A stretch of DNA of 38,014 nt from Polyangium fumosum (lineage in GTDB: Bacteria > Myxococcota_A > Polyangia > Polyangiales > Polyangiaceae). Below the pieces are notes generated by a model, which saw nothing but the letters and a program-made list of their open reading frames with translations, had not been told where the DNA came from and did no database searches. The stretch spans positions 1 to 38,014 of the forward strand of contig NZ_SSMQ01000095.1 in the NCBI RefSeq assembly GCF_005144585.1, written 5' to 3'. Shown here in pieces: positions 8-36,701 of this stretch (the first letter of the stretch is position 1; every line of letters begins with the position of its first letter). Both the position numbers and the translations under genes were made by a program.

Positions 8-161
8 GCGCTGGTCCGGGTCCCGGGGCGGATAGCCCCGGGTGGGGCCTGGGGCAACGCCCCAGCGAGGCGGCCCCGAGATAAGACCAATGCTCAGGCC
101 CCTGGCTGGTCCGGGTGCAGGGGCGGACAGCCCCTGCTGGGGCCTGGGGCGAAGCCCCAGC
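8..161. repeat. Hairpin-array repeat, two tandem right halves (copy D, cut by window edge)
   Basis: This stretch contains two successive right halves of the multi-hairpin element described at 26494. First half: stem CCCGGGGC/GCCCCGGG (22-29/35-42) with loop GGATA, then CTGGGGC/GCCCCAG (49-55/59-65) with loop AAC. Second half: a degraded CCAG-type hairpin (about 95-109), then GCAGGGGC/GCCCCTGC (117-124/130-137) with loop GGACA, then CTGGGGC/GCCCCAG (144-150/154-160) with loop GAA. The order and the GGACA and GAA loops match the right ends of the complete copies. The last hairpin ends 20 nt from the stop codon of the leftward gene at 181. No left half is visible inside the window. Confidence 0.75.
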
Positions 162-16713: not shown

Positions 16714-18096
16714 ATGCTGGAGCTGGTCGTCGACAATCCCTACACCCTCGACGTGGCCGTCAGGCGCCCGCTCGCCGAAGCCGGTGAGGTGGACCAGGCC
16801 CTGGAGGCCGCCCGCGCCGCCGCCCGGGCGTTCGCCGGGGCGCCCGTGAAGGACCGGGTGGCCCTCTGCCTCGCGGCCATCGCGCGGATGGAAGAGCGGG
16901 CCGAAGCGATCGCAGCCGACATCACCGCCATGATGGGCAAGCCCCTGCGTCAAGCGCGTGGCGAGGTGGGCGGGATGGCCAAGCGAGCCCGGTACATGGC
17001 GAGCATCGCCGAGGCCTCCCTCGCAGACACGGTCTTGCCGCCCCAGGAGGGCTTCGAGCGGCGGATCACGCGGGCCCCGCTGGGAGTCGTGTTCAACCTG
17101 CCCGCATGGAACTATCCGCTGCTCACGGCGGTGAACGTGGTGATCCCGGCCGTGCTCGCGGGGAACGCGGTGGTCCTGAAGCACTCGCCGCGGTCGCCGC
17201 TCTGCGGAGAGCACTTTGCCGACGCGCTGCGTGACGCGGGGGCGCCGGCCGGGCTCGTCCAGGCGCTGCACTGCGATCACGAGATGGCAGGGCGCATCGT
17301 GGCCGATCCACGCGTGGACCACGTGGCGTTCACGGGCTCGGTCGCAGGCGGGCACAAGGTGTACGCAGCGGCCGCAGCCGCGCGCTTCGTGGACGTGGGT
17401 CTCGAGCTCGGCGGCAAGGACGCGGCGTACGTGGCAGCAGACGCCGATCTCGACAAGGCGATCGAGAACATCGTCGACGGCGCCTGTTACAACGCAGGCC
17501 AGAGCTGCTGCGCCGTCGAGCGCGCGTACGTGCACCGGAGTCTCTACGACAAGTTCGTCGAAGGGTGTCTCGCGCTGATGAAGTCCTACCGTCTCGGCGA
17601 TCCCACGGCCGCCGAGACGACCATGGGCCCCATCGCGCAGCCGCATCACCCAGCGTTCATCCAAGCACAAATCGATCGCGCAGTCGCCGCAGGCGCGCGG
17701 GTTCTCTTGGGAGGCAAACGAACGCAAGTCGACGGGCGCGGGCGGTTCTTCGAGCCAACCCTGCTCGTGAACGTCGACCCACGCATGGACGTGATGCGAA
17801 TCGAGACGTTCGGCCCCGTGCTGCCCATCACGCCCGTGGACTCGGACGAGGAGGCCGTGGCGCTGGCGAACGACAGCGATCTCGGCCTGACAGCGAGCAT
17901 CTGGACAAGGGACCGAGCACGCACCGAGCACCTCGCAAAGCAGCTCGACGTCGGCACCGTCTACATGAACCAGTGCGACACGCTCGACCCAGCCCTGCCC
18001 TGGACCGGCGTGAAGGACAGCGGCAAGGGCTCGAGTCTGTCCGCGCTCGGCTTTCTGCACCTGACGCGGCCAAAGGCGCTGAACTTCAAGCTTTGA
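16714..18096 (+). CDS. NAD(P)-dependent aldehyde dehydrogenase
   Basis: A 460-residue cytoplasmic enzyme of the ALDH superfamily, oxidising aldehydes to acids with NAD(P)+. Visible signatures are FNLPAWNYPLLTAVNVVIPAVLAGN (oxyanion Asn region), VVLKHSPRSPLC, FTGSVAGG (cofactor loop), the general-base Glu in LELGGKDAAYV (about 231), and the nucleophile Cys in NAGQSCCAVER (about 265). ETFGPVLPI closes the family pattern. The length is slightly short of the usual 480-500. The FNLPAWNYP and LELGGKD context recalls succinate-semialdehyde dehydrogenase-like subfamilies, but the substrate cannot be fixed. ATG 16714 was chosen because the domain begins immediately; the frame upstream overlaps the divergent phosphatase gene. 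A hairpin-array repeat starts 4 nt after the stop. Confidence 0.93.
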   Translation: MLELVVDNPYTLDVAVRRPLAEAGEVDQALEAARAAARAFAGAPVKDRVALCLAAIARMEERAEAIAADITAMMGKPLRQARGEVGGMAKRARYMASIAEASLADTVLPPQEGFERRITRAPLGVVFNLPAWNYPLLTAVNVVIPAVLAGNAVVLKHSPRSPLCGEHFADALRDAGAPAGLVQALHCDHEMAGRIVADPRVDHVAFTGSVAGGHKVYAAAAAARFVDVGLELGGKDAAYVAADADLDKAIENIVDGACYNAGQSCCAVERAYVHRSLYDKFVEGCLALMKSYRLGDPTAAETTMGPIAQPHHPAFIQAQIDRAVAAGARVLLGGKRTQVDGRGRFFEPTLLVNVDPRMDVMRIETFGPVLPITPVDSDEEAVALANDSDLGLTASIWTRDRARTEHLAKQLDVGTVYMNQCDTLDPALPWTGVKDSGKGSSLSALGFLHLTRPKALNFKL

Positions 18097-18100
18097 GAGC

Positions 18101-18434
18101 GCGGGGCTCTGCCCCGCACCCCGGAAGGGGGCTGTCCGCCCCCTTCACCCCGGACCAGGCACGGCCTGGACCGAGGGTGGAAGAACTGCGCGATGCGCAG
18201 TTCTTCCAACGGGCCCGTGGCAAGACTGTGGGGGTGGTTTTCAAGCCAGCGACGAGGGCGCTGCCGGTTGAACCCGTAGCGTCGCGGTCTTGGTTGGCAG
18301 GATCGTCGCCGGTCTTGACGCTGGCTGTTCGATGAACTGCGCGGAGCGCAGTTCATCGACCCTGGGTCCAGCGCCTCGCTGGTCCAGGTCCAGGGGTGGA
18401 CAACCCCTGGTCGGGGTCCGGGGTGAAACCCCGG
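18101..18434. repeat. Hairpin-array repeat, complete copy A
   Basis: Eight hairpins in order. H1 GCGGGGC/GCCCCGC (18101-18117, loop TCT). H2 GAAGGGGGC/GCCCCCTTC (18124-18146, loop TGTCC). H3 CCAGGC/GCCTGG (18155-18169, loop ACG). H4 TGGAAGAACTGCGC/GCGCAGTTCTTCCA (18178-18208, loop GAT). H5 TCGATGAACTGCGC/GCGCAGTTCATCGA (18329-18359, loop GGA). H6 CCAGCG/CGCTGG (18368-18382, loop CCT). H7 CCAGGGGT/ACCCCTGG (18390-18410, loop GGACA). H8 CCGGGGT/ACCCCGG (18418-18434, loop GAA). A divergent 120-bp centre separates H4 and H5. The element exactly fills the space between two convergent genes: 4 nt after one stop and 2 nt before the other. Confidence 0.9.
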
Positions 18435-18436
18435 CG

Positions 18437-19252
18437 CTACGTCGCCGCTTCGAACTGGTACGTCGCGCGCTCGGCGCCTTCGACCTTCACGACGACGCGG
18501 TTGGGTTCGAGGTGCACGATGGCGTGTGCGGCGGCGGGGCGGCCGGGGGCGTCGTCGTCGAGGTTTTCGATGAGGCTTTGCAGGGTGACGAAGGGGATGC
18601 CGTCGATCACGTCGAGGTGGTTCCAGTGCAGGTGACCGTTGAAGACGGCGCGCACGACGCCGCTCTCGCGCAGGAGGGTCCGGAGTGCGCGCCGCTCCTC
18701 GACGAGACAGATGTGTGGCGCGCCCTCGAACCAGCGGTTGCCGCGGAGATCCTGATCGGCTGCGCTGTGGTGCATGAGAACCACTGTTGGTGCGCGCGTC
18801 GCGGCGAGATCCTCGCGTAGCCAGCGGAGTTGCTCCTCGCCCACCGTGACGTCGTGATCCTTGCGCTCGCGCGTGTGGAGCACGATGAAGTGGAAGCCGC
18901 CGCGATCGAACGCGTGGTAGAGCCGATCGAGATCGGGACGCTGCCAGACGGAGAGGAGCTCCGACGGCGAGAGGTGCGCGGTGTCGTGGTTCCCCGCGAC
19001 GTTCACGAGCTCGGCGCGCGCGCTGCGGAGGAGGTGGATGCACGCGGCGTAGCGGGCGAGGTCGGCGTCGTGGTCCTCGTCCTCGATGTCGTCGCCGAGG
19101 TTCACGACGAGGTCGGGGTGGACGACTTCGTTCATGCGGGCGACGAAGGCTTTGGCGAGGCCGGGGGCGCTGCGGGTGAGCTTGCGCAGCTTGCCCGCGA
19201 ATCCAGCTTCGGGGCCGAAGTGGAGATCGGTGATCAGGCTGAGCGTGAGCAT
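18437..19252 (-). CDS. Calcineurin-like metallophosphoesterase (CpdA-like)
   Basis: A 271-residue soluble protein with the full set of binuclear-metal motifs: DLH (Asp9, His11), NLGDDIED, VAGNHD, LMHHS and the final NGHLHWNH. The overall organisation is that of class III cyclic-nucleotide phosphodiesterases (CpdA) and related phosphoesterases; the substrate cannot be decided from sequence. The ATG at 19252 is 7 bp after the stop of bolA, indicating an operon. Its own stop sits 2 nt from the end of a hairpin-array repeat. Confidence 0.9.
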   Translation of the reverse strand: MLTLSLITDLHFGPEAGFAGKLRKLTRSAPGLAKAFVARMNEVVHPDLVVNLGDDIEDEDHDADLARYAACIHLLRSARAELVNVAGNHDTAHLSPSELLSVWQRPDLDRLYHAFDRGGFHFIVLHTRERKDHDVTVGEEQLRWLREDLAATRAPTVVLMHHSAADQDLRGNRWFEGAPHICLVEERRALRTLLRESGVVRAVFNGHLHWNHLDVIDGIPFVTLQSLIENLDDDAPGRPAAAHAIVHLEPNRVVVKVEGAERATYQFEAAT

Positions 19253-19259
19253 GCCGATC

Positions 19260-19583
19260 TCAGGACTTGTCGTGCTTCGAGCCGCCGAGACAGGGCGGCG
19301 ACTGGAAGCCTGGGGCGCCTTCGGCGTCGAACTGCGCGGGCGTGAGCGCGCGGATCGTGAGCGCGTGCAGGCCTGAGCGCAGCTCCGTGGCGAGGGCTGT
19401 GTGCACCTTGCGGTGCCTGTCGATGGTGCCGAGACCCTCGAAGGCGGGGCTCACGATCAGCACCTTGAAGTGCGTCTCGGAGCCTGCGGGCACGTTGTGG
19501 TTTTTGCTCTCGTTCTCGACCGTGAGGAACACGGGCGCGAGGGCCTCGGAGAGCTTCTGCTCGATCCTCTCTTGACGCGACAC
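19260..19583 (-). CDS. bolA: BolA family protein
   Basis: A 107-residue small protein with the BolA signature: an N-terminal helix (RIEQKLSEALAP), then VENESKNHNVPAGSETHFKVLIVSPAFEG and the conserved IDRHRKVHTALATEL helix, with the His residues that ligate [2Fe-2S] together with monothiol glutaredoxins. A C-terminal extension (TPAQFDAEG then SPPCLGG) with one Cys is typical of many BolA proteins. The likely role is iron-sulfur trafficking or stress and morphology regulation. Translation starts at GTG (19583). It is probably co-transcribed with the phosphoesterase gene 7 bp downstream. Confidence 0.92.
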   Translation of the reverse strand: MSRQERIEQKLSEALAPVFLTVENESKNHNVPAGSETHFKVLIVSPAFEGLGTIDRHRKVHTALATELRSGLHALTIRALTPAQFDAEGAPGFQSPPCLGGSKHDKS

Positions 19584-19648
19584 GCGGCGAGCTTAGCCCG
19601 GATTTCGCATCTCTCCCATCCTGCTCGGGCCTGGGTTACAAAGGCGCG

Positions 19649-20152
19649 ATGACACGCTTCCCCCATGCTTTCTTCGCGCGCGTCCTCTGCGCCTCGGGGC
19701 GCTCGCTCGTCTTGTGCGCGGCCCTGCTCGCCGGCTGCAGCGACGAGAGCGACGACACCACCACGGAGACGACCACGACCGATCCGCCCACGATCTCCAT
19801 CAAGAGCCCTTTGGAAGGCGCCTGCGTCTCGATCGGCGAGGTGCCGGACGTTCGGATCCCCTTCTTGCTCGACGTCAAAGCGCTCTTGCTGCGGCCGCCC
19901 GGGTACTGCGGCGACACGAAGGCGTGTGGACACCTTGAACTCTCGGCGAACGGCAAGGTGGTCGGCCGCGGCTCCGGGACGGTCGTGGAGTTCCCGATGA
20001 TCGGCGTTGCGAATCGGTACGACACGTTCGACGTGGAGATCGTCGTCGTGGATGACGGGGGCGCGCCGCTCGCCGGCGGTGAAGGGAGCGTGCTCCGCGC
20101 GACACGGACGATCACGACGGCGGCGTCGTGCGACAAGGGCGGAGGTGCGTGA
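19649..20152 (+). CDS. Secreted lipoprotein of unknown function
   Basis: A 167-residue precursor with a long signal peptide ending in the lipobox LLAGC (Cys about 30), followed by a Thr-rich linker (SDDTTTETTTTDPP) and a domain of alternating beta-strands (TISIKSPLEGACVSIGEV, HLELSANGKVVGRG, DTFDVEIVVVDDGGAPL) that looks immunoglobulin-like. Four mature Cys could form two disulfides. Its TGA overlaps the ATG of the following large lipoprotein gene by one base, so the two are translationally coupled and probably work together at the outer membrane. Confidence 0.8.
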   Translation: MTRFPHAFFARVLCASGRSLVLCAALLAGCSDESDDTTTETTTTDPPTISIKSPLEGACVSIGEVPDVRIPFLLDVKALLLRPPGYCGDTKACGHLELSANGKVVGRGSGTVVEFPMIGVANRYDTFDVEIVVVDDGGAPLAGGEGSVLRATRTITTAASCDKGGGA

Positions 20153-23100
20153 TGCGGGTGCGACGCGAGGACCGCGGGAAATGGGCTGTGCGCGCGGTCG
20201 TCTCCGGGATGGCCTTGATCCTGGCTGCCGGGAGCTGCGTCGCGCCGCCTCCACCCAAGACGATGTCGACGTCGGACGTCCGCTGCGACAAGGCTGCGCT
20301 TGCCACGTGTGAGGGCGCGATCGTCGCGGCCGCGCGGGAAGAGCGGGATCCGACGGCGCTGATCGACGCCTACGCTGCGGCGCGGGCCGAGCGTGACGCC
20401 GCCGATCGGTGGGCCTCGCTCTGGCGTGACGCGAAGTCCGATCCGAAAGCGCGCGCTGCGAAGTCGGTCGTCTTGCGCGAGCAGAGCGGCAGCGACACGC
20501 CTTCGCCGCGGGTCTCCGCGCGAAAAGGAGCCGTGGAGATCCGGACCGGGCCGCTGCCCCGCCCGGCGTCGATCGACGCGTCAGCGCTGCTCGCCGCGAT
20601 GGGTGCGTCGCTCGGCTGGGAGACGATCGCGCGCGTCCCTGCCGACACGAAGACGTTCACGGAGATCTTCCCGAACGATCCGCTCCGCCCCTTCATGGCC
20701 GGCCTACCGCCCGTCGTGCAGGACATCGTTTCGCGTGATCCCGAGGGGATCCTCGATCTCGATCTGGAGATCGCCCAAGCGGTCCGACGCGCCGCCGAGC
20801 ACGCCGCGAGCTTCCGCTACGTCAACGCAGCCGGCGAGGCCGATCGCCTTTCGAACCTGCTCGAAAGGCGCAACGCCGCGAGCGAGCGCAAGCCCTCGCA
20901 TCCTTCCGAGGAAGCCGAGCCCGTGCTCCGCGGGAGGTACTTGCTCACGCTGCTGGAGAGCGCCGGCATCGCGCTCGAACCTCCGGCGGGCGCCTCGATC
21001 TCGCCGTACCCGAACGCTCGTTCGAGTGGCCCCCCCGGGCCGGACACGTTGCGCGACGGCACGCCATACGGCCACCTCCTGCGCGTCCGCGCCGCGGAGG
21101 ACGACGGCGCGACCTGGAAGGTCGTCGGCGACGCCATCCTCGCGGCCGTGCCGGAAGGCAACCGCGAGGGGATCCGCGCGCTCTTTGGCCCGCGAGAGGC
21201 GTGCGTCGCCGTGCCGCCGCCGAGCTTCCAGGGGCCCGACGATCTGGCCTTCGCGTATTCGATGGGCCGCTCGCTCGCGCCTTCGCTCTCGCTCGACACG
21301 ACCCGGAAGAACCTCCTACCGCTCGCGGCGTGGTTGCCCCGGTACGACGCGTTCGTGCGCACGGTGGGCGAGGCCCGCACGACCTGGACCCACGCCTTCG
21401 CGTTGACGCAGCAGCGCGGCGAGCTCTCGGGGATCTCGCTCGCGCAGACGCCCACGTATCGGCGTGCCTCGATGCTCGTCTCTGCGCACCTGGCCGCGCT
21501 GTCGCAGCTCCACCAGGCCCACCCCGATCGCACGCGCTCGATGAGCGTGGTCACGCTCGCGTACGCCCCCGGCCTGGTCTCCGACCCGGCGCTGCGCGAC
21601 GCGCTCGTGGATCTGCTGCGACGCATGATCGAGGATCGGTTCGCGCGCGCGAAGGACGCCCCCGAGGTCTTCGAGGCCGCCTTCACCGGCGCGCTCGCCG
21701 CGACAGCGTACCCGGCCGCCATCCAGAGCGCGTTTTACACAGGCCTCGTCGGCGCGTTCCGCAAGAAGCTCGACGGGGATCTCGCGCGCCAGAGCGGCTG
21801 GGGCGTGGCCGGGCTCTTCACCGCCGACGTGCTCGTGCGCATGCTCCTCGGCGAACGACCCGATCTCGACGCGGCCGCGGCCCGGGTCGGGCAAGCCCTC
21901 GCCGATCCGTCCGTCGCCCGGCGCCCGCTCGCGCGCCTCGCCGCCAGCGTGGCCCGTTACCTCGCGCTCGGCAGCGCCGGCAAGCTCGACCCCGACGCCG
22001 CCGATCCGGCCCGCTTCCCCGCCGATCGCAAGGCCGCGCGGGACGCTCTGCGCGAGAGCCTCGCCGGCCTCGGCGAAGGCGCGGAGCCGATGCCCGCGGC
22101 CCTGCTCGACGACGTGGTGACCCTTGGCGATCAAACGATCACCGCGCTCGCGACGATCCTCCTCGACAAGCCTGCCGGCTCCGAGCCGAAGTGCGGCGGC
22201 GCGAAAGGCGGGCCGAGCCCCGCGGCGCGCCGCGTCCTCGCGCGGATCGGCGACGTGCGGAGGCGGATCCTCGCGAGCCCCTCGTATGCCAAGGGTGACG
22301 GCGCGACGATCCGCCGCGCGCGGCTCGTCGTGACGATCCTGTCGGACGCGATCGACGTCGCGTCGCCGCGGAAGAACAAGGCCGCGCCCTTCGCCTTCGT
22401 GATCCCGGCGGCGGACGCCGACCGCGCCTTTTCGGCCGGGCTCGCCGCGTGGGAGGAGCGCGCGTTCGCCGACGCGATCACGTCGATCTACGGCCTCGTG
22501 CGGACCTACCTCGCCGAGCCCAAGGCCTCGTCGATCGACGCGACCCGCGTGAGGAGCCTGCTCAGCGCGCTCGCGGCGATCTTCCGTGATGAAAGCGCAG
22601 GCACCTCGGTCGGCCTGCTCGACGCGCTCGCCCGTGCTGCCGCGGTGGAGACCCCGCAGGGCGGGCTCGACGCGCTCCTCGTCTCGCTCGCCGGCACCTT
22701 GCGGGCCCAGGGCAAGCAGGATCAGGCTGACTTTTGCCTGCTCGGCGGCGTGCTCGTCTCGGTCGCCACGGACAAGCCGCCGCCCGACGCGGCCATCGCC
22801 GCGGCGTCGAGCGGCGCCTCCGAGCTCGGCTGGGCCCTGCGTTTCGCGCGCGAGGTCTTCCGGGCGCGGCACGGAGAGCCGCCGCGGCCGAGCGAGTACG
22901 CCGAGGGCATGCGCGGCGCCGTCACGCGCGCCTGCGAGGATCCCGGGGCCGCGGACGCCGTGGTCTCCGTGATGGACGCGATGCGGCTCGCGAACACGGG
23001 CGACCGCGCGAAGGCGCGCGAGAAACTCGACGCGTTCCTCGCGAAGGCCGAGTCGAGCGGGCTCGTGATGCCCCGCATGACGTACCGCTACGAGGAGAAG

Positions 23101-24510
23101 ACCGTCTCCAAGGTCCTCAACGTGATCTTCGACGTCTCCTTCGGCGCGGGCTTGCTCGAACGTTCTTCCTCGTTCCAGCTCGGCCTCGGCGTGCGCTCGC
23201 CCCGCAAACCCGAGGGCTCGTTCGCCGCGTACCTCGCGCCGATCGCCGGCCCCGATCGCGACACCGAGGCCGCGCGGTACTACGTGCACGCCTCCGCCGT
23301 CGCCGCCGCCTACCACTTCCTCGACGGCGACGTCGATCGCGGCGCCTCCGCCGCGTCCCGCGCGATCGACGCCGCGATCTTCGGCGCGCGCCTCGGCGGC
23401 CGATCGCTCGGCCCGGCCGATCCGAAGACCCTCGCCGTCGACGCGCGCGCCGTCCTCGCCGTCACGGCCGTCCTCGCCGCCGACGCCGGCATGCCCTTGC
23501 TCGCCGGTGATCTCTGGTCACTCGTCCGCGCCACGCTCGACGAGGACACGGACGACGCCGCCCTGCGCGAGATCCTCTCGACGACGCCCGTCGCCTTCGC
23601 CGGCATGCCCACCGCAAAACCCCTGCTCGATCGCGCCGCGCGTGCCCTCGCCGTGCTCGGCGAGCCCCTCGCCTGCACCGAGGACAAGGTCGAGCTCGGC
23701 GGCTACGAGGCGCCTGCGTGTGACACCTACTCCCTCGCCCTCTCGCTCCGCGCGGGCGGCGCGCTCCACAAGCTCCCGCGGATCCGGCGCGGCGACACCG
23801 GCAAGGCTTGCGGCGGCCCCCTGCCCGCCCTCGATACGTTCCTCGGCGGCATGGACGAGAAGAACTACGACCCCGACGCGTTCACCCGCGCCACGCTCGA
23901 TCTCGCCTCGGCCGGCCGCGTCTACGACGCCGCCATCCTCCTCGCCCGCCAGCGCCAGCCGAGCCACTGCAACCCGAGCCTCCTCGGCGCCGCCCGCTCG
24001 ATCGGCCGATCGAAGCTCCTCGGCCCGAGCTTGCGGGCCGACACGCTCAGCGTCGCCGTCAACTGCGCCCCCCTCGAAGACGCCGCGCTCGACGATCTCG
24101 CCGCGCTCGACGCGGACACGGCGGCCCTCGCCGATCGCAGCCGCAACCTCTCCGTGCTCGTCTTCGCGACCGAGCTCGGCCTCACCCGCGACCGATGGGA
24201 TGTGCTGGCCAAGCTCGCGAGGAGCCCCACGTTCGTCTCGCGATGGGTCGACACCAGCCCGCAGGCATCGCTCTTCGCCCTCGTCCTCGCGCACGCCGTG
24301 GCGATCCTCGCGAAGGAGCCCACCCTCGCCGAGCCCGCTTCGCGCTCGTACGATCTCTTCTGCGTCACGCTCCCGCCCGCCGACAAGGCCGCCTGCGAGG
24401 CGATCCGGGCCCTCGGTCAGCCGGAGGGAGATCCCGAGGCCCAGGCCAAACGCGCGCGCGAGGCGGTCTCGGCCGCGCTGCAAAGGATCACGCAGAAGGC
24501 CCGGCGGTGA
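20152..24510 (+). CDS. Very large (1452-residue) alpha-helical lipoprotein, unknown family
   Basis: A 1452-residue protein. An N-terminal signal with a basic start, hydrophobic core and lipobox-like AAGSC is followed by a Pro-rich PPPPK segment. The rest is Ala/Leu/Arg/Asp-rich and predicted largely helical, with short repeated helix-turn-helix stretches (for example ALARAAAVETPQGGLDALLV and AVLAVTAVLAADAGMPLLAG) suggesting a TPR-like or HEAT-like solenoid. No catalytic motif is visible. Cys are sparse but present in late segments (ACTEDKVELGGYEAPACDTY). ATG 20152 is supported by GGAGG 7 nt upstream and coupling to the preceding lipoprotein gene. Third positions are almost all G/C along the whole length, so it is a genuine single gene. 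Function is unknown. Confidence 0.82.
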   Translation: MRVRREDRGKWAVRAVVSGMALILAAGSCVAPPPPKTMSTSDVRCDKAALATCEGAIVAAAREERDPTALIDAYAAARAERDAADRWASLWRDAKSDPKARAAKSVVLREQSGSDTPSPRVSARKGAVEIRTGPLPRPASIDASALLAAMGASLGWETIARVPADTKTFTEIFPNDPLRPFMAGLPPVVQDIVSRDPEGILDLDLEIAQAVRRAAEHAASFRYVNAAGEADRLSNLLERRNAASERKPSHPSEEAEPVLRGRYLLTLLESAGIALEPPAGASISPYPNARSSGPPGPDTLRDGTPYGHLLRVRAAEDDGATWKVVGDAILAAVPEGNREGIRALFGPREACVAVPPPSFQGPDDLAFAYSMGRSLAPSLSLDTTRKNLLPLAAWLPRYDAFVRTVGEARTTWTHAFALTQQRGELSGISLAQTPTYRRASMLVSAHLAALSQLHQAHPDRTRSMSVVTLAYAPGLVSDPALRDALVDLLRRMIEDRFARAKDAPEVFEAAFTGALAATAYPAAIQSAFYTGLVGAFRKKLDGDLARQSGWGVAGLFTADVLVRMLLGERPDLDAAAARVGQALADPSVARRPLARLAASVARYLALGSAGKLDPDAADPARFPADRKAARDALRESLAGLGEGAEPMPAALLDDVVTLGDQTITALATILLDKPAGSEPKCGGAKGGPSPAARRVLARIGDVRRRILASPSYAKGDGATIRRARLVVTILSDAIDVASPRKNKAAPFAFVIPAADADRAFSAGLAAWEERAFADAITSIYGLVRTYLAEPKASSIDATRVRSLLSALAAIFRDESAGTSVGLLDALARAAAVETPQGGLDALLVSLAGTLRAQGKQDQADFCLLGGVLVSVATDKPPPDAAIAAASSGASELGWALRFAREVFRARHGEPPRPSEYAEGMRGAVTRACEDPGAADAVVSVMDAMRLANTGDRAKAREKLDAFLAKAESSGLVMPRMTYRYEEKTVSKVLNVIFDVSFGAGLLERSSSFQLGLGVRSPRKPEGSFAAYLAPIAGPDRDTEAARYYVHASAVAAAYHFLDGDVDRGASAASRAIDAAIFGARLGGRSLGPADPKTLAVDARAVLAVTAVLAADAGMPLLAGDLWSLVRATLDEDTDDAALREILSTTPVAFAGMPTAKPLLDRAARALAVLGEPLACTEDKVELGGYEAPACDTYSLALSLRAGGALHKLPRIRRGDTGKACGGPLPALDTFLGGMDEKNYDPDAFTRATLDLASAGRVYDAAILLARQRQPSHCNPSLLGAARSIGRSKLLGPSLRADTLSVAVNCAPLEDAALDDLAALDADTAALADRSRNLSVLVFATELGLTRDRWDVLAKLARSPTFVSRWVDTSPQASLFALVLAHAVAILAKEPTLAEPASRSYDLFCVTLPPADKAACEAIRALGQPEGDPEAQAKRAREAVSAALQRITQKARR

Positions 24511-24553
24511 TATCGTCCGCCCGCTTTTTGGCCCGCCCTGAGGAGACGCTCGC

Positions 24554-26074
24554 ATGACCCAGGCCCAAGACAAACCCCGCCGCGAGGCGGGCATCCTCCT
24601 GCACCCGACCTCCCTGCCCGGCCCCTACGGCATGGGGGATCTCGGCGCCTCTGCGCGGCGCTTCCTCGACTGGCTGGCCCAGGCCGGGCTCGGCCTCTGG
24701 CAGGTCCTGCCCCTCAACCCGACCAGCAACAACTGCCCCTACGTCTGCTGGTCCGCCTTCGCCGGCAACCCGCTGCTCGTCGACCTCGTCCGGCTGCACG
24801 AGCTCGGCCTGCTCGACGCCGCGGACCTCGCGCACGACTTCACGCCCGCGAGCGTCGTCGACTTCGACGCCGTGCGCGCCTTCAAGGAGCCGCGCCTCGA
24901 TCGCGCCGCCGAGCGCCTCCTCGCGCACCCCGAGCACCCGCTGCGCAAGCCGCTCGCCGCCTTCCGCGAGGCCGAGGCCTCGTGGCTGGAGGACGCCGCG
25001 CTCTTCTGGCTCCTCTCGCGCAAGAACGGCGGCAAGGCCTGGTGGGACTGGGAGCCCGCCCTGCGCGACCGCGAGCCCGCGGCGCTCGCCAAGGCCCGCG
25101 CCGAGTTCGCCAAGGAGATCGAGCGCGAGATCGCCATCCTGTTTTTCTTCGAGCACCAATGGTCGGAGCTCCGCGCCTACGCCCACGCCCGTGGCGTGCG
25201 GATCGTCGGCGACCTGCCGATCTACGTCGATCGCAACAGCGTCGACGTCTGGGCGCACCGAAGCCTCTTTCACCTCGACGAGCTCGGCACGCCGCAGACC
25301 GTGTCGGGCGTGCCGCCGGACTACTTCAGCGAGACCGGCCAGCTCTGGGGCAACCCGATCTACCGCTGGGATCGCATGGCCGAGGACGACTTCTCCTGGT
25401 GGCGCGCCCGCCTCCGCCGCGTCCTCGCGCACACGGACATCGCCCGCATCGATCATTTCCGCGCGTTCGCCGCGTACTGGGAGATCCCGTTCGGCGCCCC
25501 CGACGCGCGCGGCGGCCGCTGGGTGAAGGGCCCCGGGCTCGCGTTTTTCCAGGCGCTCGAGCGTCACGGCAAGATGCCGCTCGTCGCCGAGGATCTCGGC
25601 ATGATCGACGAGGCCGTCCACGAGCTGCGCCGCGCCGCCGGCCTGCCTGGCATGCGCGTCCTTCAGTTCGCATTCGGCGGCGACGCGGACAACACGCACC
25701 TGCCCCACAACCACGAGCCAGACAACGTCGTCTACCCGGGCACCCACGACAACGACACCACCGTGGGCTTCTGGCACGCGACCGCGCCGCACGTGCGCCA
25801 GCACGTGCAGCGTTACCTCCGCGTGAGCGGCCAGGACATCGCGTGGGACTTCATCCTCGCGGCGTTCGCCTCCACCGCGAACACAGCGATCATCCCCATG
25901 CAGGACGTGCTCTCGCGCGGCAGCGAGGCGCGCATGAACAACCCCGCCACGACCCGCGACAACTGGCGCTTCCTCTTGCACGGCGACGTCTTCCGCCGCG
26001 AGACGGCCATGCGCCTGCGCGAGCTCGCCGATCTCTACGGACGCCTGACAACGCCGCCCGGAGCTGCCCGATGA
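24554..26074 (+). CDS. malQ: 4-alpha-glucanotransferase (GH77, amylomaltase)
   Basis: A 506-residue cytoplasmic enzyme that transfers alpha-1,4-glucan segments, acting in maltodextrin and glycogen metabolism. Signatures: GILLHPTSLPGPYGMGDLG at the N-terminus, VLPLNPTS, SAFAGNPLLVDL, GDLPIYVDRNSVDVW (about 217), SGVPPDYFSETGQLWGNPIY, nucleophile Asp in ARIDHFR (about 299), acid/base Glu in VAEDLG (about 346) and the third Asp in GTHDNDT (about 399). This is the compact plant D-enzyme/Thermus type, not the longer E. coli form. GAGGAG precedes the ATG. The stop overlaps the next gene's ATG by 4 nt. Confidence 0.96.
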   Translation: MTQAQDKPRREAGILLHPTSLPGPYGMGDLGASARRFLDWLAQAGLGLWQVLPLNPTSNNCPYVCWSAFAGNPLLVDLVRLHELGLLDAADLAHDFTPASVVDFDAVRAFKEPRLDRAAERLLAHPEHPLRKPLAAFREAEASWLEDAALFWLLSRKNGGKAWWDWEPALRDREPAALAKARAEFAKEIEREIAILFFFEHQWSELRAYAHARGVRIVGDLPIYVDRNSVDVWAHRSLFHLDELGTPQTVSGVPPDYFSETGQLWGNPIYRWDRMAEDDFSWWRARLRRVLAHTDIARIDHFRAFAAYWEIPFGAPDARGGRWVKGPGLAFFQALERHGKMPLVAEDLGMIDEAVHELRRAAGLPGMRVLQFAFGGDADNTHLPHNHEPDNVVYPGTHDNDTTVGFWHATAPHVRQHVQRYLRVSGQDIAWDFILAAFASTANTAIIPMQDVLSRGSEARMNNPATTRDNWRFLLHGDVFRRETAMRLRELADLYGRLTTPPGAAR

Positions 26075-26490
26075 GCGAGCAATACCGCCTCGCCTCTCCG
26101 CAGTGCCCGCTCTGCGCGGGCCTGCTGCAAGAACGCCCCACCCCCGGCGCCGTGGTCGACGTCTGCGCCGACTGCCACGCCGTGTGGATCGACTGGTTCG
26201 ACGGCGACGTCTCCAGCGTCGCCTCGGCCGTCGAGGTCCGCCCGGCGGTCCCGCAGGCGCGCCCGGGGGCTCGCACCTGCCCGCGTTGCCGCGACACCCT
26301 CGCGCCCGAGCACCTGCGCGGCCACGGCCCCGAGATCCTGCGCTGCCCCGGCTGCGCGGGCGTCCTCATCCCCTCGACGATGCTCGCCGAGGTCGTGGCC
26401 CTCGGCCCGATCGAAGACACCTCGCCCCCCACGCCGGAAGAGGGCCTCTTCCGGCGCATGCTCAACGCCATCCGCGCCCTCGGAGCCTAG
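26071..26490 (+). CDS. Double zinc-ribbon (TFIIB-like) protein
   Basis: A 139-residue soluble protein with two four-Cys zinc-ribbon modules: CPLC...CADC in residues about 10-35 and CPRC...CPGC in residues about 70-95, each followed by an aromatic or hydrophobic strand (VWIDWFDGD; GVLIPSTMLAEV). This is the zf-TFIIB-like arrangement seen in small bacterial proteins of unknown role. The 4-nt ATGA overlap with malQ means the two are translated together; no functional link is obvious. A hairpin-array repeat begins 3 nt after its TAG. Confidence 0.8.
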   Translation: MSEQYRLASPQCPLCAGLLQERPTPGAVVDVCADCHAVWIDWFDGDVSSVASAVEVRPAVPQARPGARTCPRCRDTLAPEHLRGHGPEILRCPGCAGVLIPSTMLAEVVALGPIEDTSPPTPEEGLFRRMLNAIRALGA

Positions 26491-26493
26491 CGC

Positions 26494-26794
26494 TGGGGCT
26501 TTGCCCCAGGCCCCAGCAGGGGCTGTCCGCCCCTGCACCCGGACCAGCCAGGGGCTGGACCCGGGGTCGATGAACTGCGCGATGCGCAGTTCATCGAACA
26601 GGCCCGGTCAAGACCAGCAGCGGCGTTGCCAACCGAGACCGCCGCGCTGCGGGTTCGGCTGGCAACCTGGGTTCTTCGTGGGCCTGTTTGAAAAACTGCG
26701 CACCGCGCAGTTTTTCAACCCTCGGTCCAGGGCCGTGCCCTGGTCCGGGTCCAGGGGTGGACAACCCCTGGTCGGGTCCGGGGTGAAACCCCGG
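26494..26794. repeat. Hairpin-array repeat, complete copy B
   Basis: H1 TGGGGC/GCCCCA (26494-26508, loop TTT). H2 GCAGGGGC/GCCCCTGC (26516-26536, loop TGTCC). H3 CCAGCC/GGCTGG (26544-26558, loop AGG). H4 TCGATGAACTGCGC/GCGCAGTTCATCGA (26567-26597, loop GAT). H5 TTGAAAAACTGCGC/GCGCAGTTTTTCAA (26688-26718, loop ACC). H6 CCAGGGC/GCCCTGG (26727-26743, loop CGT). H7 CCAGGGGT/ACCCCTGG (26751-26771, loop GGACA). H8 CCGGGGT/ACCCCGG (26778-26794, loop GAA). The centre is bounded by AACAGGCC and GGCCTGTT (26597-26604, 26681-26688) and also contains a GTTGCCA/TGGCAAC pair. The element lies between convergent genes. Confidence 0.92.
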
Positions 26795-26817
26795 CGGCGC
26801 CACGCTGTGCCCCTCCC

Positions 26818-27768
26818 CTACTTCGGCGGCGGTTCGACAGGTGCGAACGTCGTCGAACCGGCGCCCCAGAACTGGAGGTTCGGGTTCCCTGGGATCGCGA
26901 TCGGCGTCGACGTGACGCTGGTGCCGTTTGGGTTGAAGGTGAGTTCGAAGAGGAAGCCTGAGTTCGTGAAGCCGTAGACGCTGCCTGCCCAGAAGGCGAT
27001 TCCGAAGACGTCCGAGTTTCCGACGGGGCCCCAGTTCTTCACGAGTGCGCCTGTCTTCGGGTTCACCTCGATCAGACAATCGTCGCAGCCGTTGCCCTTC
27101 ACCGTCAGGTACGTCCCGCCGCCCTTCACCGACACGATGTCCCCGCTCGACGAGTAGCCGCCGCCGATCGAGCCGACGGTCGTCATCACGCCGGTGACCG
27201 TGTCGATGCGCACGTACGTCGCGTTCTCGTAGCCGACGAGCACCTCGTGGTTCGGATCGAGCGTCCCTGCCGGCACGAACGAGAGCGAGTTCGGGTAGCT
27301 CCCGCTCGCGATCTCCGTGCACTTTGCGGTCGTCTTGTCGATCCAGTAGAGCCCGTAGAAGCTTGTCCCGACGATCTTCGAGTCCTTGTCGATCGCGATG
27401 TCGATGACGTCGCCGCAGCCCTCGAAGTAGCCCACGACCGAGACTTCTTTCGTGTAGGGCTCGAGTTTGTAGAGCCGATCGGGGCTGTGCCCGAACACCT
27501 CCGCGGGCAGCTCCGGGTCGGGCGTCCCGCCGTCGGTGGGGAATTCGAACCCGCCCGCGCCGCCGTCCCCGCCTGCGCCCCCTGGACCTGCCGTTCCTCC
27601 CTGTCCGCCCGTGCCGCCCGTGCCGCCCGAGCCCCCTTGCCCTTGCCCTGCGTCGCCACCTTGCCCGCCCGTGAACGTGCCGTCCGTGCTCGCGGCCGAG
27701 CAACCGAGCATGAGCGCCGAAGCGGTGAACAAGGCGAACGAAGAAAAAAGGAAGAAGGCTCTTTGCAT
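26818..27768 (-). CDS. Gly-rich lipoprotein with a beta-propeller-like domain
   Basis: A 316-residue precursor: the signal peptide ends in lipobox MLGC (Cys about 24), followed by a low-complexity Gly/Thr/Gln linker of about 55 residues (GGTGGTGGQGG type) and a domain of about 240 residues. That domain has repeated strands of the type DRLYKLEPYTKEVSVVG, GLYWIDKTTAKCTEIA, TYVRIDTVTGVMTTVG and CLIEVNPKTGALVKNWG, each pairing an aromatic strand with a T/DxxTG turn, as in WD/YVTN-like propellers. ATG 27768 has a GGAG upstream; the longer frame has no signal at its start. It is divergent from another Gly-rich propeller lipoprotein gene. It is probably cell-surface; ligand unknown. Confidence 0.8.
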   Translation of the reverse strand: MQRAFFLFSSFALFTASALMLGCSAASTDGTFTGGQGGDAGQGQGGSGGTGGTGGQGGTAGPGGAGGDGGAGGFEFPTDGGTPDPELPAEVFGHSPDRLYKLEPYTKEVSVVGYFEGCGDVIDIAIDKDSKIVGTSFYGLYWIDKTTAKCTEIASGSYPNSLSFVPAGTLDPNHEVLVGYENATYVRIDTVTGVMTTVGSIGGGYSSSGDIVSVKGGGTYLTVKGNGCDDCLIEVNPKTGALVKNWGPVGNSDVFGIAFWAGSVYGFTNSGFLFELTFNPNGTSVTSTPIAIPGNPNLQFWGAGSTTFAPVEPPPK

Positions 27769-27990
27769 GGGCAAAACTCCGCGAATTCGTCGTCCTTCGC
27801 GGACGCCGATCCAGGAACGTAGGAGACCAGACCCCCTCCTGGGCGTCAAGCCGCGCCCCGGACACGATTTCCCGAAGGATTCTGGCCCGAAACGGCGGGA
27901 AGCGGCCGGGGTATTGTGGATGGCCTTGCAATCAGTAATGTGACGGAAACTCGGGATCACTCCCCTCGGTCTACGCCGGAGGCTTCAGAC

Positions 27991-30141
27991 ATGCTTCGCC
28001 GATCGCGACTCCTTTCTCTTTCTTTCCCCACGATCACGCTCGCCTTGCTCAGCGCCGTCGCTGGCTGCGGCGAGCCCACACCCGACACCACCGGCGGCGT
28101 CGCGCAGGGCGGCGCCGGCGGCACTGGAGGCACCGGTGGGATGGGCGGTGGTGGGATGGGCGGCGGCGGCACGGGTGGCCAGGGCGGCCAGGGCGGCGGT
28201 GGGATGGGCGGCACCGGCGGCATGTCCGGCTGCACCCTCGGCACCACGCAGCCCTGTTACGCCGGGCCCGACGGCACCCAGGGCGTCGGCCCCTGCAAGG
28301 CCGGCGTGCAGACGTGCGAGCCAAACGGTGAGTTTGGCGCGTGCGTCGATGAGGTCCTGCCCGCGGCCGAGACGTGCAACGGCGTCGACGACGACTGCGA
28401 CGGCAACGTCGACAACGATCCGAGCTGCGTCTGCGTGCCGGGCGACATGATGGACTGCTACGACGGACCCCCCGGCACCGCCGGCACGGGCGTCTGCGTG
28501 GGGGGCAAGGCCACGTGCGCGGCCGACGGCCAGTCCTACGGCCCGTGCGTCGGGCAGGTCCTGCCCTCGGCCGAGACCTGCAACATGCAGGACGACGACT
28601 GCGACGGCGTCGTGGACGACGGCATCGGCTGCGCTTGCGCGCCGGGCACGAGCATCAACTGCTACACCGGCCCCGACAACACGAACGGCGTCGGGCTCTG
28701 CAAGGGCGGCAGCCAGACCTGCCTCGCGGATGGAACGGGCTACGGCGCCTGCATGGGCGAGGTCCTGCCCTCGCTCGACAACTGCGCCTCCCCGGCGGAC
28801 GAGGACTGCAGCGGCGCGGCGCTCGCTTGCACGGGCGACCACGTCGTGAGCAAGCAGTTTGGCGGCGCCTCGAACCAGGTCGGCATGGACGTCGCGGTCG
28901 ACGCCCAGGGCAACGTTTACACGATCGGCCACTTCGAGGGCTCGATCAACATGGGCGGCGCCATCGGCACGCTCACGAGCGCGGGCAGCACCGACGTCCT
29001 CGTCGCGAAGTACGACCCCATGGGCAACGTCCTCTGGGCGAAGCAGTACGGCAACACGGCGGCCCAGGTCGGCAACGGCATCGCGGTCGACGGCGCGGGC
29101 AACGTGTACGTCACCGGCTCGTTCCAGGGCTCGATCAACTTCGGCATGGGCGCCATGACGAGCGCGGGCGGCGACGATCTCTACGTCGCCAAGCTCGACA
29201 CGGACGGCACCTTCCTCTGGCAGCGGAGCCTCGGCAACACCGTGACCCAGCAGGGCATGGACATCGCGGTCGACGCGACGGGCGCGGCCTACGTGACCGG
29301 CCAGTTCTCGGGCGACATCACCTTCGCCGGGCAAATCCAAAACGTGGCGGGGCTCGACGCGATGCTCCTCAAGTACTCGAGCACCGGCGGCGCGCTATGG
29401 GGCAAGGGTTTTGGCGGCACGGGCACGCAGTTCGGCTACGAAGTCTCCGTGACCCCCGCGGGTCAGGTCACGTTCGTCGGCGCCTTCCAGAACACCATCA
29501 GCTTCGTCGGCAACACGCTCACGAGCGCGGGCGACTATGACATCGTGGTGGCTCGGTTCGACGCCGCCGGCACGCATCTGTGGAGCAAGGGCTACGGCGA
29601 CGCCGCGAACCAGCGCGCGTTCGCCGTGGCCACGGATCCCACGGACGGCTCCGTCGTGCTCACGGGCGAGTATGCCGGCTCGTTCTCGTTCGACGGCGGC
29701 ATCACCACGCTCACGTGCGCGGACGGCACGGACAACGTCGACGGGTACATCGCCAAGCTCGACATCATGGGTAACCACGTCTGGAGCAAGTCGTTCGGCA
29801 ACCTGACCGCGCAGCGCGGTCAGGGCCTCGCGATCGACGTCTTTGGCAACATCGTGATCACCGGCGAGTTCTTCAACCAGGTCAACCTCGGCGGCGGCGC
29901 GGTCGTCAGCGCGGGCGGGCGTGACGTCTTCGTCGGCAAGCTCAACCCGAGCGGCGCGCAGCTTTGGCTCGACCGGTACGGCAGCGGCATGCTGACGAAC
30001 CAGTCGGGCGAGTCCGTCGCGATCGACCCGCAGACGAACACGTGGGTGACGGGCACCTTCGAAAACATCATCGACTTCGGCGGCGGCCCCTTCACGTCTG
30101 CCGGCGCGACCGACATGTTCCTCGCGAAGCTCGCTCCCTGA
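27991..30141 (+). CDS. MopE-motif and SBBP seven-repeat beta-propeller lipoprotein
   Basis: A 716-residue precursor. The signal peptide ends in lipobox AVAGC (Cys about 26), then a Gly-rich linker (about 40-85). Three Cys-rich modules follow, two with the MopE-type putative metal-binding motif (ETCNGVDDDCDGNVD and ETCNMQDDDCDGVVD) and one degenerate (PADEDCSG). The C-terminal 430 residues contain seven SBBP-type units with the pattern VAVDAxGNVYxTGxFxGxIxFGG followed by AKxDxxGxxLWxKxxG. Seven units would close a seven-bladed propeller. Such proteins are abundant on myxobacterial surfaces; a role in adhesion or metal binding is inference. GGAGG precedes ATG 27991. A terminator-like hairpin follows the stop. 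Confidence 0.88.
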   Translation: MLRRSRLLSLSFPTITLALLSAVAGCGEPTPDTTGGVAQGGAGGTGGTGGMGGGGMGGGGTGGQGGQGGGGMGGTGGMSGCTLGTTQPCYAGPDGTQGVGPCKAGVQTCEPNGEFGACVDEVLPAAETCNGVDDDCDGNVDNDPSCVCVPGDMMDCYDGPPGTAGTGVCVGGKATCAADGQSYGPCVGQVLPSAETCNMQDDDCDGVVDDGIGCACAPGTSINCYTGPDNTNGVGLCKGGSQTCLADGTGYGACMGEVLPSLDNCASPADEDCSGAALACTGDHVVSKQFGGASNQVGMDVAVDAQGNVYTIGHFEGSINMGGAIGTLTSAGSTDVLVAKYDPMGNVLWAKQYGNTAAQVGNGIAVDGAGNVYVTGSFQGSINFGMGAMTSAGGDDLYVAKLDTDGTFLWQRSLGNTVTQQGMDIAVDATGAAYVTGQFSGDITFAGQIQNVAGLDAMLLKYSSTGGALWGKGFGGTGTQFGYEVSVTPAGQVTFVGAFQNTISFVGNTLTSAGDYDIVVARFDAAGTHLWSKGYGDAANQRAFAVATDPTDGSVVLTGEYAGSFSFDGGITTLTCADGTDNVDGYIAKLDIMGNHVWSKSFGNLTAQRGQGLAIDVFGNIVITGEFFNQVNLGGGAVVSAGGRDVFVGKLNPSGAQLWLDRYGSGMLTNQSGESVAIDPQTNTWVTGTFENIIDFGGGPFTSAGATDMFLAKLAP

Positions 30142-30151
30142 GGATCCTCCT

Positions 30152-30175
30152 GGGGGCTCGCCCGAACGAGCCCCC
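30152..30175 (+). terminator. Terminator-like hairpin after the propeller lipoprotein gene
   Basis: GGGGGCTCG (30152-30160) pairs perfectly with CGAGCCCCC (30167-30175) around a 6-nt loop, 10 bp after the stop codon. It is followed by TTCGTT, a weak U-rich stretch. Confidence 0.65.
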
Positions 30176-30235
30176 TTCGTTCCACGCTTGGGGCTACGCT
30201 CGGGCGAGCCGAGCTACGCCCAAACCCCCGAGACC

Positions 30236-30778
30236 ATGCACCCTCTTCACGATATTCACGTCGTCCCTTCCTCCATCGCAGAGTTCGTCCCTGCGGTCGT
30301 CGAGATCCCCCGTGGATCCAAGCTCAAGTACGAGCTCGACAAGCGCACCGGGCTGCTCATGCTCGACCGTGTCCTCTACTCGTCGGTCCACTACCCTGCG
30401 AATTACGGGTTCATCCCGCAGACGCACGCGGGCGACGGGGATGCCCTCGACATCCTCGTGCTCATGCAGGAGCCCGTGCATCCCCTAACCATCGTGCGCG
30501 CCCGGCCCGTCGGCGGGTTTCGCATGCGGGACGACAAGGGCGTCGACGACAAGATCATCGCGGTGGCGATCGATGATCCTGCGTATGCCCATTACGAGGA
30601 GGCGACGGAGCTGCCGTCGCACGTCCTCGCCGAGATCCGGCGATTCTTTCAGGACTACAAGATCCTCGAAGGCAAGATCAGCGAGGTCGACGATCTCTAC
30701 GATCGCAAGCGCGCCCTCGACGTGATCGCCGAGTCGATCGCGACCTATCGGAAGGACGCGGCCTGGGGCAAACCCTGA
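30236..30778 (+). CDS. ppa: Inorganic pyrophosphatase (family I)
   Basis: A 180-residue soluble enzyme that hydrolyses PPi to two phosphates, pulling biosynthetic reactions forward. Family I signatures: VVEIPRGSKLKYELDK, DRVLYSSVHYPANYGFIPQT, the metal-binding DGDALDILVL and DDKIIAV, and FFQDYKILEGK. The usual signature DGDPLD carries Ala in place of Pro. The ATG at 30236 was chosen because the conserved region starts soon after; an in-frame GTG/ATG region upstream would cross the preceding hairpin. It is monocistronic. A hairpin-array repeat starts 25 nt downstream of the stop. Confidence 0.95.
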   Translation: MHPLHDIHVVPSSIAEFVPAVVEIPRGSKLKYELDKRTGLLMLDRVLYSSVHYPANYGFIPQTHAGDGDALDILVLMQEPVHPLTIVRARPVGGFRMRDDKGVDDKIIAVAIDDPAYAHYEEATELPSHVLAEIRRFFQDYKILEGKISEVDDLYDRKRALDVIAESIATYRKDAAWGKP

Positions 30779-30803
30779 CAGGACGCTGCGCGGAGGCGCG
30801 GAG

Positions 30804-31106
30804 CTGGGGCTTTGCCCCAGGCCCCACCCGGGGCTGTCCGCCCCGGGACCCGGACCAGCCAGGGGCTGGACCCAAGCTCGATGAACTGCGCGATGCGCAG
30901 TTCATCGAACAGGCCCGGGTCAAGACCAGCAGCAGCGTTGCCAACCGAGACAGCCGCGCTGTGGGTTCTGCTGGCGCCCCGGCTTGTTCGTCGGCCTGTT
31001 TGAAAAACTGCGCGGAGCGCAGTTTTTCAACCCTGGGTCCAGCGCCTCGCTGGTCCGGGGTCGAGGGGGCGGACAGCCCCCCGCGGGGACCGGGGCAGAG
31101 CCCCGG
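30804..31106. repeat. Hairpin-array repeat, complete copy C
   Basis: H1 CTGGGGC/GCCCCAG (30804-30820, loop TTT). H2 CCCGGGGC/GCCCCGGG (30827-30847, loop TGTCC). H3 CCAGCC/GGCTGG (30855-30869, loop AGG). H4 TCGATGAACTGCGC/GCGCAGTTCATCGA (30878-30908, loop GAT). H5 TTGAAAAACTGCGC/GCGCAGTTTTTCAA (31000-31030, loop GGA). H6 CCAGCG/CGCTGG (31039-31053, loop CCT). H7 GGGGGC/GCCCCC (31065-31081, loop GGACA). H8 CCGGGGC/GCCCCGG (31090-31106, loop AGA). The 91-bp centre closely resembles that of copy B and has the same AACAGGCC/GGCCTGTT boundary. Unlike A and B it lies between two genes on the same strand, with the right end near the promoter of the next gene. Confidence 0.92.
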
Positions 31107-31201
31107 CGCCCACCTTGTCTCCTCGAACCCTCCACCCTACCTCCTCGGGCGCCACGGAACGTTCGGCGCCCTTCGGGCGTCCATCCATCGAGGCCGAGGT
31201 C

Positions 31202-33560: not shown

Positions 33561-33674
33561 ATGAAGAATTCATGGGGGTGGTGGCTCGTCGCGGGCGTCG
33601 TGTTCGTTTCGGCGTGCAGGCATGCTCGCCGGGCTTGTCGGCAACGGCTGGGGGCTTCTTCGTCGACATGGTAG
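33561..33674 (+). pseudogene. Lipoprotein reading frame truncated by repeat DNA
   Basis: The frame starts at ATG 33561 with a good lipoprotein signal peptide, MKNSWGWWLVAGVVFVSAC. Immediately after the lipobox Cys it enters the GCCGGGCTTGTCGGC-type repeat and is Arg-rich (RHARRACRQRLGASSSTW) until a TAG at 33672. The signal peptide is convincing and the tail is not, so I read this as a lipoprotein gene cut by repeat insertion or expansion. A downstream stretch in another frame (about 33730-33850) could be the remnant of its body, but this is uncertain. Confidence 0.55.
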
Positions 33675-33713
33675 CCGGGCTTGTCGGCCAGGTAGCCGGG
33701 CTTGTCGGCCCGA
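33622..33713. repeat. GCCGGGCTTGTCGGC repeat, dispersed locus 1
   Basis: Three imperfect copies of a core (T/A)GCCGGGCTTGTCGGC start near 33622, 33668 and 33690. The first unit is 46 bp and includes the companion segment AACGGCTGGGGGCTT and GTCGACATGG; the second is only 22 bp. The same units occur as a 43-bp tandem array at 36409. No spacers of independent sequence separate the units. Confidence 0.8.
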
Positions 33714-36389: not shown

Positions 36390-36408
36390 GAAGTCCAAGA
36401 TCGAAGGC

Positions 36409-36558: not shown

Positions 36559-36701
36559 TAGTGGCCGGATATCCGTGAAAGTGGCTGGATGACGATCCGG
36601 CGTGCGCGGCGTGATCTACGCTTGTGCAAGACGTCGCCCCGATGGCGCAGACACACCACCGGGGCGACTTGACGCAACCACGCTCACACGAGGTCACGCC
36701 C

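Follow-up and report, generated by a model that had tools for sequence, protein, structure and literature searches.

A 38,014-nucleotide stretch of Polyangium fumosum DNA (NZ_SSMQ01000095.1, positions 1 to 38,014, termed the window below) carries several copies of an intergenic element, and comparison with copies elsewhere in the genus indicates that they belong to one polar, non-coding, hairpin-rich repeat family which is preferentially placed at gene ends, a preference strongly supported by position counts in two genomes. We regard it as somewhat probable that these elements are genus-specific non-autonomous mobile repeats, akin to repetitive extragenic palindromic (REP) sequences and miniature inverted-repeat transposable elements (MITEs), which land and survive at gene ends and whose hairpins become the 3' ends of mRNAs. 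Such an element would behave like a large composite REP or MITE, entering at a stop codon or no more than a few bases away from it through the action of a transposase supplied in trans; it would be retained at the gene end because neither gene is damaged, the stops being kept and the element edge being able to supply TAG; and its hairpins might then serve as the mRNA 3' end, through end protection or assistance with termination on both strands. The original prediction had proposed that the elements lie flush between the stop codons of convergent genes, with hairpins acting as bidirectional terminators or protecting mRNA 3' ends, or that they insert preferentially at termination hairpins; the observation itself is confirmed, and the overall interpretation is partly supported.

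Placement relative to gene ends

The window lies in contig C195 of a 12.98 Mb genome (G000), which was compared with five further genomes of the genus, six in total. Placement was analyzed in 1.188 Mb of tiled DNA from G000 (about 9% of this genome, comprising the window and six contigs picked for containing top matches) and in 1.14 Mb of G004, a syntenic and close relative. Genes were called with a purpose-built codon-usage caller and element arms were located with a profile hidden Markov model, yielding 76 matches in G000 and 50 in G004 (126 in total, single arms being counted separately). Joining of paired distant arms reduced these to 70 and 49 elements, and exclusion of six G000 elements with a neighbor missing on one side left 64 for the placement counts; one of the six joined pairs (C114 6533-7377) was counted as one divergent element. 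The null model was uniform insertion into element-free intergenic DNA (5000 simulations), with selection against promoters ignored.

In G000, convergent genes flank 37 of 64 elements, against 7.1 expected (standard deviation 2.5, simulation maximum 19), and a stop is found within 30 nt of 48 of the 64, against 6.2 expected (maximum 16). The corresponding values for G004 are 29 of 49 (5.7 expected, maximum 16) and 34 of 49 (5.3 expected, maximum 13), although the two sets are not independent, as many element sites are common to both. Over both genomes, elements occupy 62 of 300 convergent gaps, 39 of 1069 tandem gaps and 8 of 301 divergent gaps. Among the central elements of four further genomes (52 loci, four of them with one neighbor lacking a gene call), convergent placement was seen in 9 of 14 in G005, 10 of 12 in G003 and 10 of 14 in G002. 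Placement is thus not random relative to gene ends, and the counts over these 1.19 and 1.14 Mb and in the four further genomes, weakly in G001, bear out the gene-end preference that had been proposed from the window.

Random insertion, with no targeting and no function, and with survival only where nothing was disrupted, mainly in convergent gaps, is an improbable explanation of this pattern. The genome is gene-dense, with no match classed as intragenic (one of the 126 shares 76 nt with a called gene), its element-free convergent gaps are short, with a median of 10 nt in G000, and copies that merely avoided promoters would give the same appearance. Yet in tandem gaps, which are roomy, the stop is nearer than the next start for 36 of 39 elements in the two genomes, and for 27 of 39 it is no more than 30 nt away; further, four of five exact target duplications fall on a stop codon (see below). 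Within tandem gaps, arm polarity shows no preference with respect to the gene upstream (10 beta, 8 alpha, 5 other).

The copies in the window (elements and hairpins are given without strand) illustrate these settings. Element A, a full copy of the approximately 331-bp class (18100..18435), begins 3 nt after the TGA stop of an aldehyde dehydrogenase gene (PF00171; 18094..18096, + strand) and ends one base from the TAG stop of the opposing gene (18437..18439, - strand), which has no Pfam match and is metallophosphoesterase-like by eye only. Element B, a full copy of the 304-bp class (26492..26795), abuts a TAG stop with a 1-nt gap (26488..26490, + strand), and the opposing stop lies 22 nt past its end (26818..26820, - strand). 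Element C, also of full form (30803..31107), lies 24 nt downstream of the TGA stop (30776..30778, + strand) of ppa, which encodes inorganic pyrophosphatase (PF00719). Copy D consists of two partial right arms at the contig edge (9..66 and 83..161), the second ending 19 nt before a stop. The distances originally read for A (4 and 2 nt) and B (3 and 23 nt) agree with these arm-edge gaps to within 2 nt, and those for C (25 nt) and D (20 nt) differ by a single base. The convergent setting holds for A and B only: C occupies a tandem gap, the next called gene, at 31202, having the same direction as ppa, and D is present only as partial arms, its left side cut by the contig edge. By eye, D (window 1-170) appears to be one element nested within another, and several other draft contig ends fall in these repeats (C66, C114, C116, C138, C196). 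The window also contains a family of 37-64-nt direct repeats (33621-33703 and 36408-36573), several being arranged in tandem 43 nt apart; there were no Rfam 15 matches at gathering score within it.

In the genomes searched, the repeat family is confined to the genus. A first search of 20 genomes gave many matches in all six Polyangium genomes and a single weak match, in which no arm was found, in one genome outside the genus. When 377 genomes of the phylum were drawn and two candidates scored in each, five matched, all of this genus, and the element was not found in the other 372.

Arms, size classes and stem conservation

A full copy (289-337 bp) consists of two inverted arms, alpha and beta, flanking a center of roughly 90 nt, with four local hairpins per arm in the consensus of 83 arms and hence eight per copy. 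The alpha arm begins CTGGGG and has the inner stem TCGATGAACTG, and the beta arm begins CCGGGG and has the inner stem TTGAAAAACTG in the class of about 304 bp or TGGAAGAACTG in that of about 331 bp; a minority of copies depart from this pattern. In element B the inner hairpin of arm alpha, of the TCGATGAACTGCGC type, lies at 26567..26597, and that of arm beta, of the TTGAAAAACTGCGC type with A5 and T5 within its stem, at 26688..26718. The exact inner hairpin occurs at 338 places in the P. fumosum genome, as against none for the reversed control. The two arms of a copy seemed to avoid having the same hairpin, but this was rejected as a sign of selection, since it follows from the alpha and beta arms being mostly fixed and the orientation random.

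Beyond the full copies there are single-arm forms (approximately 95-150 bp) and forms of about 800 bp. Among 48 single-arm matches with room on both sides, 26 have the GCATCGACCGC-type hairpin belonging to a separate short form, 18 carry the full-form inner hairpin and are truncated copies, and 4 carry neither. The long forms include C114:25090-25985, C116:24110-24960 and C114:149340-150190 of G000, and no open reading frame was called inside six examined copies. Two of the long copies share 96.5% identity over 840 nt; both adjoin a called gene of equal length and score.

Folding is far more stable than that of shuffled sequences for B (z of -12.7 as DNA, and -16.3 and -13.5 for RNA of the two strands) and for A (z of -9.2). 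Across 83 arms of G000, 31 stem pairs show 98.4% pairing versus 88.1% with shuffled partners (maximum 89.1%), and a shift of the partners by a column or two reduces pairing to 34-48%. Double changes are seen at 17 pairs versus 8.4 in shuffles (maximum 11) and in 277 cells versus 79 (maximum 108), the shuffle leaving relatedness among the arms in place. The stems thus covary, and the same trend is apparent between species: in 18 pairs of orthologous copies, stem differences comprise 57 double changes that remain paired, 8 single changes that remain paired and 15 that break the pair. Gene conversion among copies could contribute to these differences between orthologues.

Turnover between relatives and possible entry at stop codons

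The elements are polymorphic between close relatives. Of 76 matches in G000, 53 could be mapped in G004, where 33 have an element and 20 do not (elements in G004 being scored loosely, within intervals of up to 4 kb, with most of C116 outside the comparison, and two of the 20 being arms of one joined pair). Conversely, 37 of the 50 G004 matches could be mapped in G000, with 33 occupied and 4 absent. The orthologous region of the window was also recovered in Polyangium sp. y55x31, 6x1 and 15x6. The site of A is occupied in all three and in G004, and that of B is empty in y55x31, with 5 nt between the stops, contains a single arm in 6x1, 15x6 and G004, and is full in the window. At four shared sites the copy is full in G000 and reduced to the single-arm form in G004, and 7 of 18 orthologous pairs of full copies differ in length by at least 26 nt. 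At one shared site (G000 C22:52934-53241, G004 g4e 61836-62143) the center of the element is inverted between unmoved outer arms, its identity being 27% in the same orientation and 91% as the reverse complement.

Visual comparison with the empty alleles places 17 of the 18 flanking stops that lie no more than 50 nt from an element at an unchanged position, indicating that the stops were there before the element entered. Species-specific matches are near stops in 14 of 20 cases and shared matches in 23 of 32; as the two are equally close, the gene-end bias was present early. Genes end on a TAG one base before the arm at A and B and at several other sites, and the stop codon can come from the TAGC of the arm edge. 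The stop at site B is TAG in the window and TGA at the same place in y55x31, 6x1 and 15x6.

Clean ends identify the point of entry in a few copies. Two of the 48 single-arm matches have 9-10 of 10 matching end bases together with a 3-bp duplication unreached by shuffled flanks, and in both the duplicated triplet is the stop TGA. An armless 121-bp relative in G004 (g4d 215715) has the same ends and likewise duplicates a TGA stop, and in a full copy in G001 (locus L193), whose CTGAGCATNGGTCTCA ends are intact, the stop lies within a 9-bp duplication. Taken together, five insertions have clean ends, and in four the target duplication is, or contains, the stop codon of the gene. Insertion at gene ends, as had been proposed, is therefore supported by the empty orthologous sites and these few clean duplications. 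A more specific version holds that the stop codon itself is the insertion site, the duplicated target being or containing the stop triplet, such that each insertion rebuilds the gene end, and that this habit is common to single-arm, two-arm and armless elements; we advance it only tentatively and think it rather unlikely. Entry at a stop codon is seen in few copies only, as the remaining ones are ragged.

With one mismatch allowed, the end motif GAGGGTGTTCC occurs 57 times in the tiled DNA versus 39 for the reversed motif, with 6 near elements, and GCATGGGTCTC occurs 59 times versus 19, with 14 near elements. Paired GAGGGTGTTCC ends, scanned across 2.70 Mb of sequence with overlaps included, gave 39 pairs, as against 22 and 17 for two motif controls. 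Within the tiled DNA, those with an exact duplication were the two single-arm copies, the armless G004 element and the pair at C114 88979 described below. Armless elements of about 121 bp with GAGGGTGTTCC ends and a 3-bp duplication lie flush on a stop in G004 (7675715-7675835) and in G000 (C118:82343-82463); possibly they constitute a second small mobile family with the same stop habit. The second armless copy on a stop was left uncounted, as the search pattern already contained TGA. Duplications seen by eye at C113 87801, C44 97606 and site B of G004 were likewise uncounted, not being top picks of the end search.

Several observations weigh against the mobile-repeat reading. The bias is weaker in G001, where only 2 of 8 central elements are convergent and 4 of 8 are within 30 nt of a stop, and the placement counts depend on a null blind to promoter selection and on a gene caller built for this purpose. 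Further standard pair types in the arm stems come to 27, which does not exceed what the shuffles give (mean 23.8, maximum 28). Of the two motif controls, one yielded neither an exact duplication nor a pair on a stop and the other yielded one of each, and an exactly duplicated pair whose ends are weaker (C114 88979) is off-stop. Ends are mostly ragged, with a convincing duplication in 2 of 48 single-arm copies and 1 of 129 full copies, and 3-bp duplications flank 17 full copies versus 8 in a mismatched-flank control. A target duplication of 3-9 bp was accordingly rejected as a general property of full copies, there being one convincing copy and a 3-bp class near the control. Targeting of TGA by all copies was also rejected: stops beside elements comprise 82 TGA, 34 TAG and 7 TAA versus 1236, 295 and 152 overall, with no enrichment of TGA (82 of 123 versus 1236 of 1683). 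The context CTGAG is modestly enriched at these stops (15 of 76 versus 77 of 773, and 11 of 50 versus 83 of 784; P about 0.02 each, the two not being independent). No transposase was found in the approximately 9% of the P. fumosum genome that was read. On the whole, the case for stop-codon-directed insertion is thin.

Terminators, known repeat systems and gene content

A bidirectional terminator or mRNA protection role is plausible because the stems covary, and it leads to an alternative in which the elements are domesticated terminators or 3'-end protectors that inserted broadly, the copies behind stops having been kept by positive selection. We consider this account possible but not likely. 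The covariation, present in both arms and between orthologues with paired double changes well above broken pairs, would be expected under it. Also in its favor, A5 and T5 surround a GC stem in the inner hairpin of arm beta in the 304-bp class; against it, this T run is located within the stem, and the other common types of inner hairpin do not have it. A consensus terminator scan gave one site in 26400-26900 versus 0.4 expected, and 8 versus 5.3 over 18000-31200, with no excess. The lowest-energy RNA fold of B, a single long hairpin with arm against arm rather than eight local hairpins, also argues against it, as does the equal bias of species-specific and shared matches.

The distribution of canonical terminators points in both directions. 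In convergent gaps of G000 they are rarer where an element is present (2 of 36 occupied versus 17 of 111 free gaps; 1 of 14 versus 6 of 29 for gaps of 25-200 nt), and in tandem gaps they are commoner beside elements (6 of 22 versus 66 of 524 in G000; 4 of 17 versus 55 of 506 in G004), with the qualification that occupied and free gaps differ in length, occupied tandem gaps being longer. Replacement of one hairpin by another is suggested at certain sites. In y55x31, 6x1, 15x6 and G004, a terminator-like hairpin behind ppa, followed by an extra gene of about 1.1 kb, stands in place of element C; the extra gene is a metallopeptidase by Pfam (PF00413, G004 copy). Given that all four relatives have the metallopeptidase and hairpin where the window has the element, the gene was probably lost at window positions 30779-31110. 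By eye, the empty G004 alleles opposite C22 147275, C44 67095 and C66 44188 have a CCCCTCTCCC...GGGAGAGGGG hairpin at the junction, and in the occupied alleles this other hairpin is absent rather than split. Support for insertion specifically at termination hairpins, the other option of the original prediction, is therefore weak: hairpins are present in these three empty alleles and in the relatives at site C, but the occupied alleles show no split hairpin. With 6 CCCCTCTCCC hairpins in the tiled DNA of G000 and 9 in that of G004, there are too few for testing systematic replacement.

Among known systems, the closest in placement are the GTAG/CGTC REPs, which, according to PMC3733652, are high-copy intergenic single hairpins of 20-40 bp found mainly in convergent or unidirectional gaps, the GTAG ones being tied to REP-associated Y1 tyrosine transposases (RAYTs). 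The same paper places convergent copies mostly within 20 bp of both 3' ends and those in unidirectional gaps near the end of the upstream gene, and notes that their termini can supply a TAG stop. REPs between convergent genes have been discussed as occupying safe insertion places (PMC1525189), and PMC12306157, citing earlier work, reports that ribosomes are stalled by E. coli REPs lying at most 15 nt from a stop. Gene-end placement is thus not new in itself, being a property of the published GTAG/CGTC REPs (PMC3733652). Like these, the Polyangium elements are intergenic, close to gene 3' ends and able to supply TAG; unlike them, the full copies are 289-337 bp long, with eight hairpins and two different arms. 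What differs from published REPs is the size, the polarity, the stop-codon duplications and the genus-wide turnover. Among the matches listed for Polyangium, Sorangium and myxobacterial repeats, the titles and abstract openings do not describe this family.

REPINs and bacterial interspersed mosaic elements (BIMEs), both composed of two inverted hairpin units around a spacer, share with the full copies the inverted hairpin units around a center, but the Polyangium element is much longer and usually has one alpha and one beta arm of four hairpins each. Bacterial MITEs are non-coding, with inverted ends and target duplications, and are polymorphic between relatives. The Polyangium elements are likewise non-coding and polymorphic between species, and a few copies have inverted ends and target duplications; they differ in that most copies are without recognizable ends and clean duplications are mostly on stop codons, and no autonomous partner was found in the same 9% of the genome. 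IS10 and IS50 (IS4-type insertion sequences) have ends starting with CTGA and make 9-bp duplications; among the full copies, a few whose ends are intact begin CTGAGCAT, and the likeness to these insertion sequences rests on the one copy with a 9-bp duplication. Intrinsic terminators differ from the elements, which show no excess of GC hairpins with U tracts and have the T5 of the beta hairpin within the stem.

The inverted hairpin units, the gene-end placement and the presence of GTAG (22) or CGTC (38) near 60 of 187 arm edges, for which there is no chance level for comparison, recall the REPs of PMC3733652 and raise the prospect of an ordinary REPIN or BIME moved by a RAYT. This is highly improbable. 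The Y1_Tnp domain (PF01797) was not found in three of the six genus genomes, which nonetheless have 261 to 391 first-look element candidates, and was found in 5 of 14 control genomes; the four Y1_Tnp loci in the other three genus genomes have no element arm. Y1 enzymes are not known to make target duplications, whereas a few single-arm and full copies have inverted termini with 3-bp or 9-bp duplications. A RAYT is hence disfavored as the mover.

Differences in gap length suggest a link between the elements and gene content. Gaps with an element only in P. fumosum are longer by more than 400 nt in G004 in 5 of 19 cases versus 6 of 550 gaps free of elements (P about 1e-5, Fisher test); for gaps with shared elements the figure is 5 of 32 (P about 1e-4). 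The direction of change is known at site C only, where all four relatives have the extra gene. Separately, inverted single arms flank a truncated beta-lactamase-like reading frame (PF13354) at C114:6533-7377 (locus L103), with no arm found at the matching place in G004.

Why REP-like repeats crowd gene ends is an open question, and the presence of empty, single-arm and full alleles of one junction in close relatives makes targeting, retention and terminator replacement experimentally separable. Stop-codon duplication, if true for more copies, would explain gene-end placement mechanically, and insertion at stop codons would then amount to gene-safe transposition that also equips genes across the genus with new hairpin 3' ends. 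The excess of longer G004 gaps beside elements suggests a further influence of the elements on the gene content of these very large genomes.

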